From: Saccharopolyspora rhizosphaerae
GTDB lineage: Bacteria > Actinomycetota > Actinomycetes > Mycobacteriales > Pseudonocardiaceae
Length of the DNA: 64,000 nt
Direction of reading: 5' to 3'
Assembly: GCF_003931915.1 (NCBI RefSeq)
Contig: NZ_RSAA01000007.1
Location: forward strand, 310,001 to 374,000
The first letter of the stretch is position 1. Each line of letters starts with the position of its first letter. This document shows positions 59,881 through 64,000 of this stretch, piece after piece. The notes beneath the pieces were generated by a model. That model ran no database searches. It saw only the letters and a list, made by a program, of their open reading frames with translations, and was not told the origin of the DNA. Position numbers and translations under genes: made by a program.

Positions 59881-61995
59881 TCACCCCGCGTCGGCGAGGA
59901 GCTGCTCGAGCTCCAAGGCGGACACCCGCTCACCTGCGAACGCGCCGATCGCGGAGCGCACGCCAAGCGCGCGCAGCCGCTCGGCCTGCAGCGCGTCGTC
60001 GACACCGCCCGCCAGCACCGGCAGGCGCATCAGGGCGGCCGCGCCGACCGCGGACCCCAGCAGGTGCTCGTCGAGCGGGTCTGGGCCGTCCGGGTCGGCG
60101 AAGCCCGCCAGGTGCGGCCCGTCGACGCGGACCCCGAACAGCGGGAGCCCCCGCAGCCGCGCGACCCGGGTGCAGTCGTCACCGAACTGGCGGACGAGCA
60201 GCTTGACGCCCATCTCGGCGAAGATCTCCACGGTGTCCACCGGATCACCCTGGTGGTCGAACAGCGCCGGCTCGGGCATGCCCAGCGCCAGCGCCTCCGG
60301 CGGCAGACCGGTGTCCCGCAGGACCCGCTGCAGGTCGTTGACCAGCTCGGGGTCGCGGCAGTGCCGGTGCGAGAGGTTCACCACCGCGAGCGGCCCGCGC
60401 TCACCGAATCGCTCGGTCCAGTGCGCGGCGTGCCGGCACACCTCTCCCAGCGCCCAGCTGCCGAGCCGGGTGATCAGGCCGGTCTCCTCGGCGAGGCCCA
60501 GGAACGACTCCTCCCCCAGCTCGCCGAACTCGGGGTGGTCCCAGCGAACGCCCGCGGAGGCCGCGAACAGCGACCCGTCCTCGAGCAACCGCACCGGCTC
60601 GTACTCGACGAAGAGCTCGCCGTGGTCCAGGGCTGCGGGCAGGGCAGCGGAGAGCTTGAAGCGGTCGCGGGCCTCGGCGTTGAGGGCGGTGTCGAACAGC
60701 ACCCACTGGGCGCGGCCGTCCTGCTTGGCGCGGTAGAGCGTGATGTCGGCGTCGCGCAGCAGGGCTTCGGCGTCGGCTCCGGCCACCGGACGTTCGACGA
60801 CGCCCACGCTGGCCGAGGCCGACAGCTCGTGCGCGCCGATGCGGGCCGGGCGGGTGACCTCGGCCAGCATCTTCTCCACCTTCGCCACCAGGCCCGCGGC
60901 GCCGTCGGTGTCGGGCACCAGGACCACGAACTCGTCGCCGCCCATCCGCGCGGCCAGCGCGCCGAACTCGGCGGTCAGGGCCTGCAACCGCTGGGCGACC
61001 GCGCGCAGCAGCTGGTCGCCGACGGGGTGGCCGAGGCTGTCGTTGACGGCCTTGAACCCGTCGAGGTCGAAGAAGCACAGGCCGATCCGGCGGCCCGGGT
61101 GGGTCGGTTCCAGCGCCCGCTCCATGCTGGTCTGCAGCTGGGTGCGGTTAGGCAGGCCGGTCAGCGGGTCGTGCACGGCCTGGCGCCGGAACTGCTCCTG
61201 GAGCATGTGCCGGTCGGTGATGTCCTCGTAGAGCATCACCAGGTAGTCCGGGGCGCCGTCGGCGTCGCGCACCAGCGAAGCCGAGAGCTGGGTCCAGACG
61301 TGCGAGCCGTGCTGCTCGGTGAAGCGGATCTCCAGCTGGTAGCGGTCGACCTCACCGCGCACCAGGTCCGCGTTCGCCGACGCGAGCTCGCCGACCCAGG
61401 TCGCATCCGCCAGGTCGAAGATCGTGCGACCGGTCAAGACGTTCCGGCCGGCGCGGAAGATCCTGGTCATCGAGGAGTTGATCTCCTCGATGACGCCGTC
61501 GAGCGTCACGATCGCGATGCCCAGCGCCGAGGAGGTGAACACCGCCGACGACCGCGCTTCCGAAGCCCGGTGGGCCTCCTCGGCCGCGTCGCGGGCGTCG
61601 AGCACGGACTGCTTGATGATCTCCTGCTCGGCGAGGGTCTGCTCGCGCAGCGCCCCGGCGAAGCCGGACCCGACCGCGCCGAGCACGTCGACCAGCGCGG
61701 TCTGGTCGACGTCGCGGTGGTGGGGCAGCACCGCGGCGAGGTGGTTGAGCGTCCTGTGCACGACGGTGGGTTCGGTGAAGTGCACGTCGACGAGGCGCTC
61801 GCCGACCAGGCGCGCGGATTCCAGCGGCCCGTCGCAGGCGGCGAGCACGTCGTCGAAGCACTTCGCCAGGAACGACTCGATCTCGGGCCGGCCCATCGCC
61901 ACGTAGCTCGTGTGGATGATCTCGCGCGTCCACTGCGCGACCACGTGGCTGCGATCGGGCGTCACCACGTCGGGGTTCCCCTCGGTCTCACGCAT
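59881..61995 (-). CDS. PAS-GGDEF-EAL protein with degenerate EAL domain
   Basis: A 704-aa soluble signalling protein. The N-terminal 140 residues are an unassigned helical sensor region; a PAS domain occupies about 148-265, GGDEF about 275-435, and EAL-like about 445-700. The GGDEF motif is exact ([10 protein letters not shown], residues 352-356), so diguanylate cyclase activity is likely. In the EAL part the signature EALVRW is replaced by [10 protein letters not shown], and the DDFGTGYSSL loop by [13 protein letters not shown], so metal binding and c-di-GMP hydrolysis are probably lost. It may act as a c-di-GMP sensor. The start is ATG. Confidence 0.9.
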
Positions 61996-62169
61996 CGCTC
62001 ACACCTTCTGCCCGGCGTCGCCGGTCCTGAAGTACACCCGCTGCGCCGGGGCGAGGCTCGCGGCGACCGCCCGGGTCGTTGACCACGGCGGTCGCCGTGG
62101 GCTCCGGGGCCGGGGTGAGGTCGGTGATCAGTGTGGCGATCTCGCCACCACCTCGCACGGTGAGGGTCC

Positions 62170-62979
62170 TCAGACCTTGCGTCCGACGCACCCGTAGACG
62201 ATGGACTCCTCGGGGCGCTCGCCGACGTCCTCGGGCGAATCGGGGTGCCACTCGGGGACGTAGACCACGCCGGGCTCGACGAGCTCGAAGTCGGAGACGA
62301 GTTCGGCGACCTGGGCGCGGGTGCGCAAGGTGACCGGGTTGGTGCTGTTCTCGTAGAGCTTGACCAGTCCCTCCACGCCTTCCGGGAAGTCCTCACCGGT
62401 GACGTGCGAGAAGCCCAGGTAGCTGCCCGGGGCGAGCTTGTCGTAGTACTGGCGGACAACCTCGCTCGGCTGCGCGCTGTCCGGCACGAAGTGCACCAGC
62501 GCCACCATCATCACCGCGACCGGCTGCGAGAAGTCCAGCATGCGCTGGGTTTCCGGCGCCTCCAGCACGTCGGGGACGTCGAGCAGGTCGGCTTGCACGA
62601 TCGTGGCGTTCTCGACGCCCTCCAGGATCGAGCGGCTGTGCGCGACGGCGACCGGCTCGTTGTCGACGTAGACCACGCGGGCGTCCGGGTCGACGGCGTG
62701 CGCGATCTCGTGCACGTTGCCCGCGGTCGGGATCCCCGAACCGATGTCGAGGAACTGCCGCACGCCCTGGTCCAGGCAGTAGCGCACCGCGCGCCGCAGG
62801 AACGCGCGGTTGTTGAGCGCGACCTCCTTGACGTTGGGCACCACTTCGAGGACCTTCTTGCCGAGTTCGCGGTCCGCCGCGAAGTTGTGCGCGCCGCCTA
62901 AGTAGAAGTCGTAGCAACGCGCGGCGCTGGGCTTGTCCAGGTCGACGCCCTCCGCCAGCCAATCGGGTCGCTGCTCCAT
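62170..62979 (-). CDS. SAM-dependent methyltransferase, DUF574 type
   Basis: A 269-aa protein of the actinobacterial DUF574 (Methyltransf_19) group. Features are the early KPSAARCYDFYLGGAHNFAADR, the SAM-binding FLDIGSGIPTAGNVHEIA and the acidic VVYVDNEPVAVAHS. The substrate is unknown; several relatives are controlled by developmental regulators in Streptomyces. The ATG at 62979 has AGGAGG eight bases upstream and is preferred to the GTG six codons earlier. It lies between two EAL-domain genes on the same strand. Confidence 0.9.
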   Translation of the reverse strand: MEQRPDWLAEGVDLDKPSAARCYDFYLGGAHNFAADRELGKKVLEVVPNVKEVALNNRAFLRRAVRYCLDQGVRQFLDIGSGIPTAGNVHEIAHAVDPDARVVYVDNEPVAVAHSRSILEGVENATIVQADLLDVPDVLEAPETQRMLDFSQPVAVMMVALVHFVPDSAQPSEVVRQYYDKLAPGSYLGFSHVTGEDFPEGVEGLVKLYENSTNPVTLRTRAQVAELVSDFELVEPGVVYVPEWHPDSPEDVGERPEESIVYGCVGRKV

Positions 62980-63155
62980 GAATTCAGCCTCCTGCACGTC
63001 GTCGTGACACCCGAAGCGGTGATCAACTGGGTCATCGTACTGTTACGGCCCGCGTCCGGTCATGCACCCTGCGTGGAGGTACGTGGCGACCTCCCACCTG
63101 CCCGTTCTCCAGGTTTTTCGCCGCTGTGGTCGGTTTTTTCGAACCACTTCGGCTC

Positions 63156-64000
63156 CTAGCGACGACCGCCGACGAGCTCCGCGACCTCCATCGCCGAGAC
63201 CCGTTCGCCCACGTGCGGTCCCTGAACCAGGCGCACACCGATCTCCCCCAACCGGTCGGCCTGCTCGGCGGTCGTCACACCGGTGGCCAGCACCGGCAGG
63301 TCCATCAGCCGCGCGGCACCGACGGCGCTGCGCACCAGGTACTCGCTGAGCGGTTCCGGCCCGTCGGGGTCGGCCAGGCCGTCGATGTGCGGCCCGTCGA
63401 TGAGCACGCCCGCCAGCGGCATCTCCTGGAGCCGGTCGACGCGCGTGTGGTCGGAGCCGAACTCGCGCACGAACAACCGGATCCCCATCTCGGCGAAGAT
63501 CTCAACGGTGTCCACCGGATCACCCTGGTGGTCGAACAGCGCGGGCTCGGGCAGGCACAGCACCAGTGATTCGGCGGGCAAACCGGTCTTCTCCAGCGCG
63601 GTGCGCACGCCGCGGACGAGCTCGGGATCGCGGCAGTGGCGGGCGGAGAGCGACACCGCCAGCAGCGGCGCGTGCTCGGCGAGGTCGCGCACCCAGCGCG
63701 CGGCGTGGTGGCCGGCCTGCTCCAGCGTCCAGCCGCCGACCCGGGTGATCAGCCCGGTCTCCTCGGCGAGCCCGAGGAAGCGGTTCGCGCCGAGCTCGCC
63801 GAACTCGTCGTGGTCCCAGCGCACGTCAGCCATCACCGCGATGACCTCGCCGGTCTCCACGTCGGCGACCGGCTCGTACTCGACGAACAGCTCGTGCTTC
63901 TCCAGCGCGGCGGGAAGCGCGGCCGAGAGCCGGAAGTTCTCGTGCGCCACCGCGTTGCGCTCGGCGTCGAAGAGCACCCACAGCGCACGGCCGTCGCGCT
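63156..64000 (-). CDS. EAL-domain signalling protein, degenerate, partial
   Basis: Only the C-terminal 281 residues are inside the window; the gene continues past 64000. It aligns with the C-terminal half of the 704-aa protein at 59881 (shared [24 protein letters not shown] stretch), and the nucleotide sequences are also close at 60216-60280 and 63497-63560. The EAL signature is replaced (VMADVRWDHDEFGELG) and the late loop reads REFGSDHTRVDRL, so it also looks catalytically inactive. The preceding RDGRALWVLFD suggests a GGDEF end just upstream, so it is probably another GGDEF-EAL protein. Confidence 0.85.
   Translation of the reverse strand, partial: RDGRALWVLFDAERNAVAHENFRLSAALPAALEKHELFVEYEPVADVETGEVIAVMADVRWDHDEFGELGANRFLGLAEETGLITRVGGWTLEQAGHHAARWVRDLAEHAPLLAVSLSARHCRDPELVRGVRTALEKTGLPAESLVLCLPEPALFDHQGDPVDTVEIFAEMGIRLFVREFGSDHTRVDRLQEMPLAGVLIDGPHIDGLADPDGPEPLSEYLVRSAVGAARLMDLPVLATGVTTAEQADRLGEIGVRLVQGPHVGERVSAMEVAELVGGRR

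Follow-up and report, generated by a model that had tools for sequence, protein, structure and literature searches.

Degenerate GGDEF-EAL proteins and their adjoining Methyltransf_19 gene upstream of thrS in Saccharopolyspora rhizosphaerae

What is a GGDEF-EAL protein kept for once its EAL domain has lost the residues of catalysis, and why should a methyltransferase gene lie beside it? The question is raised by the last part of a 64,000-nucleotide stretch of Saccharopolyspora rhizosphaerae DNA (the window; C32:310001-374000, in a genome of 5.82 Mb and 34 contigs), where two such proteins, A and B, flank a methyltransferase, MT. As read on the contig and in the window, the genes B, MT, A, and thrS are consecutive on the minus strand, in their order of transcription. 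A preliminary description of this stretch had located the first three and their motifs correctly and had rightly taken A and B for relatives. We consider it reasonably likely that A and B are diguanylate cyclases with a regulatory EAL domain that work together with a dedicated methyltransferase. Across the genomes compared, the conserved unit at this locus is the MT-A pair.

Protein A (59881-61995, minus strand; 704 residues) comprises an N-terminal domain of about 140 residues without an assigned fold, a PAS domain (residues 153-263; 61207-61539, minus strand; PF08448, E 2.8e-12), a GGDEF domain with an intact GGDEF motif and no RxxD inhibitory site (I-site) (60709-61179, minus strand), and a degenerate EAL domain (residues 451-687; 59935-60645, minus strand). 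The N-terminal domain matches no Pfam family (best E 0.21) and no sequence relative in the PDB (best E 0.32). B enters the window with its C-terminal part (63156-64000, minus strand), including a degenerate EAL domain found by profile match (63207-63920, minus strand), and continues past the window end to C32:375297; the complete gene on the contig (L014 9156-11297) encodes 713 residues, counted from the first ATG. Profile searches also found its PAS and GGDEF domains (the latter with 126 bits and beyond the window), in the same order as in A. MT (62170-62997, minus strand; 275 residues) is a clear member of the S-adenosylmethionine (SAM)-dependent methyltransferase family Methyltransf_19 (DUF574; PF04672, E 1.5e-93, 313.7 bits, profile positions 3-267 of 268 covered), with relatives in PDB entries 2qe6 and 3giw/3go4. 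It retains the SAM-type motif as FLDIGSGIPT.

EAL decay and GGDEF retention in the A/B family

Over 694 residues, A and B share 53.7% identity. In the EAL part, they agree at 164 of 265 positions, with 23 residues as the longest identical run, and the EAL profile recognizes both (124.7 bits for A and 142.5 for B; cutoff, 31.3). The region of the EAL signature reads ASAGVRW in A and VMADVRW in B, and the loop of B at the position of DDFGTGYSSL is REFGSDHTRVDRL. The B lineage lacks most of the conserved helix that joins the N-terminal domain to the PAS domain (L014 10827-11198 and the B orthologs).

A profile search for the A/B EAL type found it in all 22 genomes of the genus (near named relatives, Saccharopolyspora flava and S. 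ipomoeae), with 362 to 559 bits and with two copies in 6 of the 22. A second set in the genus, with one match per genome (217 to 230 bits), includes a canonical paralog of this genome at C27:738 kb; it has the layout of A, canonical EAL residues, and 42% identity to A, and its sequence leads us to call it active, 3 of the 22 genus copies having been read at this level. Among 150 family genomes, 7 of them from the genus, the A/B type occurs with at least 330 bits in 16 genomes outside the genus. Searches of the order (298 genomes) and of a class sample (394 genomes) used strict cutoffs, under which weaker degenerate relatives may be missed: the former added two A-type genomes (G343 and G346), which do not enter the synteny counts, and in the latter only the window's own A/B type matched. 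Two loci, L031 and L032, are those of G011 and G006 and were counted once.

We aligned 44 A/B-type proteins from 38 genomes with ten canonical paralogs. The eight catalytic EAL positions (the Mg ligands plus the Lys: E, N, E, D, D, K, E, and Q) are those known for EAL domains and were read against these paralogs, in which each of the eight residues is kept in 10/10. At these positions, A carries S, N, E, R, Q, R, G, and I, and B carries M, S, E, R, E, L, T, and Q. Each protein thus retains two of the eight (N and E in A; E and Q in B), and, in line with the preliminary description, the alignment with canonical EAL domains revealed no intact catalytic set. Across the 44 proteins, the Glu of EAL is kept in 4, the Asn in 15, the Glu of LTE in 42, the first Asp of DDFG (D1) in 1, the second (D2) in 16, the Lys in 2, the Glu of EGVE in none, and the Gln in 21. 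With most catalytic residues lost, A and B are predicted not to be catalytic EAL phosphodiesterases.

The preliminary description had spoken of matching, parallel, and consistent EAL substitutions in A and B. This was mistaken: the loss is family-wide, the replacements at the lost positions vary across the family, and the sets of residues at the eight sites differ between A and B. Even the Arg that both have at D1 is not common to the two copies in any of the five other two-copy genomes. Its broader proposal of a specialized family with a noncatalytic EAL domain fares better and is supported at the sequence level, given the presence of the type in 22/22 genus genomes and 16 more and the loss of the catalytic residues. 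Since D2 is kept in 15 of 16 proteins outside the genus and lost in 27 of 28 inside it, the decay seems to have progressed stepwise.

The GGDEF domain has a different fate. Its motif is intact in 43 of the 44 proteins and is accompanied by the metal-binding Asp in 42 (the exceptions are L069 and L078). In A and B, the GGDEF motif, the metal Asp, and NDSLGH are all intact, as expected of a cyclase. The earlier suggestion that A could make cyclic di-GMP (c-di-GMP) is therefore consistent with its sequence, but B appears equally competent.

Is the EAL domain simply wasting away? The ratio of nonsynonymous to synonymous substitution rates (dN/dS) of the EAL part, estimated by plain counting, which is imprecise at such a GC content, is 0.29 for A and 0.18 for B (six genomes, giving 15 pairs for each protein), and several positions that differ from the canonical paralogs are fixed in 44/44 proteins (T574P, M579F, Y613R, A655L, and P693A). 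The EAL part as a whole is therefore not drifting freely and is under purifying selection. Pseudogene decay was rejected on the dN/dS values and the open frames. A wider form of this idea would make the EAL domains and the paralogs decaying remnants and MT a chance neighbor, in a genome with 13 EAL, 22 GGDEF, and 14 Methyltransf_19 matches. The lack of any preferred replacement at the varying catalytic positions would suit it, but a dN/dS well under 1, the many positions conserved family-wide, and the absence of stops within the EAL stretch among the matches listed do not, and we regard it as improbable.

What the domain is retained for is a separate matter. The degenerate EAL domain might be a c-di-GMP receptor of the FimX/LapD type, with A and B both making and reading c-di-GMP, as feedback or as effector output. 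The domain keeps its match to the EAL profile, 42/44 proteins have the ExLxR Arg and 42/44 the LTE Glu, and the PDB matches of the profile include chains of this type, 3hv8 and 3pjt, named FimX and cyclic dimeric GMP binding protein, respectively. Another product sensor would also be useful to A, which lacks the usual I-site. In FimX and LapD, however, c-di-GMP is contacted by the Gln of YQP and the Glu of EGVE, both of which are kept in 0/44, and the FimX/LapD-type chains score below many other PDB matches. We treat a receptor function as a tentative possibility.

The MT-A pair at thrS

An A/B-type gene lies directly upstream of thrS in all 38 genomes read, and MT adjoins it in 30 of them (17/22 in the genus and 13/16 outside it). 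By contrast, the exact B-MT-A trio occurs in 6/22 genus genomes and in 0/16 of the others. As first proposed, MT probably belongs to the same pathway as its neighbors, and what is conserved outside this genome is the family and, as a unit, the MT-A pair. Of the 24 MT-A pairs that lack B, 21 have a gap of -4 to +5 nucleotides and the remaining three have gaps of 72, 45, and 78, with start codons extrapolated from homology. In one genome (G009; L075 4788-6429), MT is tandemly duplicated upstream of A.

The gene order MT-A-thrS-HIT raises the possibility that MT serves thrS or translation, for example, through tRNA or amino acid methylation, with the cyclase as a passenger. In many genomes, the 3' end of A overlaps or almost touches the estimated thrS start (window 59800-59900 and the homologous junctions), and the ligand in the MT relative 3giw resembles phenylalanine, according to the available part of its report (PMC2954221). 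However, 20 of 20 sampled thrS loci without an A-type gene (18 from the family and 2 from the order; tblastn, 1e-8) also lack an adjoining MT, so MT is associated with A rather than with thrS, and a related MT lineage stands elsewhere in the genome, upstream of another paralog (see below). We give a translational role little credence. In one of the 20 genomes, G038, a degenerate relative is encoded 3.4 kb upstream of thrS.

thrS itself (57699-59846, minus strand), the next gene downstream of A, was labeled from its translation, and its start codon is uncertain. Given the junction described above, the cyclase gene may be cotranscribed with this essential gene. After thrS come a HIT-family gene, an opposite-strand YceI-like gene, and a CDP-alcohol phosphotransferase-like gene, and a divergent ferredoxin-NADP-reductase-like gene lies upstream of B; these names were read from translations, not from domain matches. 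An Rfam scan of L014 5000-12500 for an RNA element returned nothing at E values up to 1.

How did the different arrangements arise? In a tree of the N-terminal/PAS part, B groups with five MT-less single copies (support, 100/99), or with four once a long branch is dropped, and A groups with ten MT-bearing copies (92/92 and 97/93). A recent duplication of A and B within the six-genome clade was rejected on this part (approximately unbiased [AU] test, P 0.002); on the EAL part, whose trees resolve nothing, the AU P value was 0.43. Read simply, this points to an old B-MT-A arrangement followed by differential loss, either of B, or of MT and A, or of nothing, as in the six genomes. The GGDEF part disagrees with so simple a history, grouping four MT-bearing single copies (G018, G004, G020, and G007) with B and three MT-less copies (94/88), so that sequence exchange between copies may have occurred. 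In a tree of neighbor genes, built on genes from the same neighborhood, the MT-less G015 and G019 fall inside the MT-bearing group. Five genus loci without MT at thrS (L064, L066, L069, L071, and L078) carry a B-type N-terminal half. MT-less loci of the B type could come from differential loss or from recombination between direct repeats, and we also considered a hybrid B/A gene left by an MT deletion as the origin of the five, on which the EAL trees are undecided. The thrS-locus MTs form one lineage against the 13 other Methyltransf_19 copies of this genome, with weak to good support (87/63 for 31 of them, 93/89 for 29, 75/15, and, under a better model, 98/80 for 25).

Paralog D and a second pair

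Outside the window, this genome encodes a further paralog, D (C32:516218-518323), with the same layout, 35% identity to A, a GGTEF motif, and a degenerate EAL domain, so that both domains are degenerate. D is present in 21/22 genus genomes and in 16/16 of the genomes outside the genus that were read for A. Thr takes the place of the GGDEF Asp in 20/21 genus copies, and 21/21 lack the metal Asp; both changes are found in 16/16 copies from outside. In the EAL domain of the genus copies, the first Glu is kept in 20/21 and D2 in 8/21, while the Asn, the Glu of LTE, D1, the Lys, the Glu of EGVE, and the Gln are kept in 0/21.

A same-strand Methyltransf_19 gene lies upstream of D in 11/21 genus genomes and at least 7/16 others (18/37 in all), making a second METHYLTRANSFERASE pair; the outside count is a lower bound, one match having begun too far inside the gene to show its flank. 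The estimated gap between this gene and D is 87 to 184 nucleotides in 19/19 cases, G038 included. The six B-MT-A genomes, the present one among them, showed none at D, nor did G007, G013, and G016, and G020 holds a remnant. The MTs at D constitute a single lineage (100/98) close to those at thrS; the trees neither establish nor reject a joint clade of the two (P 0.09 and P 0.15). The SAM-binding GxGIPT-type motif is present in 50/50 MTs of the two loci. L182, an unpaired Methyltransf_19 gene of this genome, falls beside the thrS-locus lineage.

Seven genus genomes, with 13 to 24 Methyltransf_19 matches each (fragments included), contain 15 pairs of a Methyltransf_19 gene and a GGDEF gene within 4 kb, compared with about 2.3 expected by random placement. 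The count used 113 of 119 Methyltransf_19 rows and 110 of 137 GGDEF rows, fragments and the weakest rows being excluded; pairs at the same locus are inherited together, and B-MT-A scores twice. In 0/7 genomes does any Methyltransf_19 row of this count come within 4 kb of the canonical paralog. Methyltransf_19 pairing thus recurs with degenerate paralogs at two loci. The loss of GGDEF residues in D and the occasional loss of MT could still be taken as the marks of remnants, but the way MT and A nearly overlap in most pairs that lack B, the second pairing at D, and the excess of pairs over random placement argue against chance neighbors. At C32:63695-66616 (L185), a further Methyltransf_19 gene lies about 1.6 kb from a GGDEF gene on the opposite strand, and G003 has the same arrangement. 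More distant degenerate GGDEF-EAL relatives occur in three other genera (L153 and L229-L233), that of G038 (L232) with an upstream Methyltransf_19 gene.

Proposed mechanism and known systems

In the scheme that we favor, that of cyclases with a regulatory EAL domain and a dedicated methyltransferase, the PAS and N-terminal domains of A and B would take an input and the GGDEF domain, judged by its residues, would make c-di-GMP. The EAL domain would no longer cleave c-di-GMP but would persist in a regulatory role, binding a ligand or a partner. MT would probably be coexpressed with A and most likely feed the same sensor, a partnership suggested by adjacency, by near-overlap in most pairs without B, by co-absence, and by recurrence. 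Its methyl target is a guess: MT might methylate either a small molecule sensed by the N-terminal/PAS/EAL part or the protein itself. The single functional hint comes from 3giw, which holds the phenylalanine-like ligand and for which the authors suggest a small-molecule methyltransferase in the available part of their report (PMC2954221).

Several points weigh against this scheme. MT is missing at 8/38 thrS loci despite an A- or B-type gene, so the cyclase is not strictly dependent on it. Tight coupling to MT is not general either: the MT-A gap is 114 to 187 nucleotides in the six B-MT-A genomes and 174 here, and the gaps at D are of similar kind, as given above. The genomes form one clade, and their counts are not independent. 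The absence of the RxxD I-site is shared by the canonical paralogs and says nothing specific about A and B.

CheR methylates chemoreceptors, and a bolder extension can be imagined along these lines. A Methyltransf_19 enzyme and a degenerate GGDEF-EAL protein would form a distinct signaling module that was duplicated whole (the thrS-locus MT with A/B, the D-locus MT with D), and methylation would set the state of its c-di-GMP protein, with MT either modifying the sensor as CheR does or making a methylated ligand read by the dead EAL/PAS part. A, as the cyclase-competent protein, and D, apparently dead in both domains, would act in a single pathway, A as its output arm and D as its receptor arm. 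We hold this to be rather unlikely.

Cyclases with a dead EAL domain are already known, and the role of that domain is usually unclear. Here, a single genome holds a series from a canonical paralog through the half-dead A and B to D, in which both domains are dead as far as sequence tells, and genes of the A/B and D kinds have their own methyltransferase in many genomes. Among the literature matches listed, from a coverage that mostly leaves out subscription journals, none pairs a GGDEF-EAL gene with Methyltransf_19 or thrS, and none demonstrates a function for Methyltransf_19/DUF574; within this coverage, the family itself led to PMC2954221 and PMC2955703. A conserved partner offers a first handle on one member of that family.

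Like A and B, FimX and LapD have a noncatalytic EAL domain in a GGDEF-EAL protein; they differ in that the GGDEF motif of A and B is intact and that A and B have lost the two c-di-GMP contacts. In Streptomyces, the accessible text on RmdB describes a GGDEF domain that contacts sigma-WhiG (PMC13232838); this resembles our reading of A and B in that one domain of a GGDEF-EAL protein serves a protein interaction, but RmdB is an active phosphodiesterase. The available portion of another report (PMC6205966) lists CdgA as a cyclase and RmdA as a phosphodiesterase, both PAS-PAC-GGDEF-EAL proteins with a domain order like that of A and B, from which RmdA differs in its activity. The closest described case, in the same portion of that report, is the diguanylate cyclase CdgC of Streptomyces, which like A and B combines a conserved GGDEF motif with a highly degenerate EAL domain, for which its authors suggest the binding of a ligand or partner (PMC6205966). 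CdgC is listed with ten transmembrane helices before its PAS-PAC part, whereas the roughly 140 residues that precede the PAS domain of A are too few for ten and A has a methyltransferase as its neighbor.

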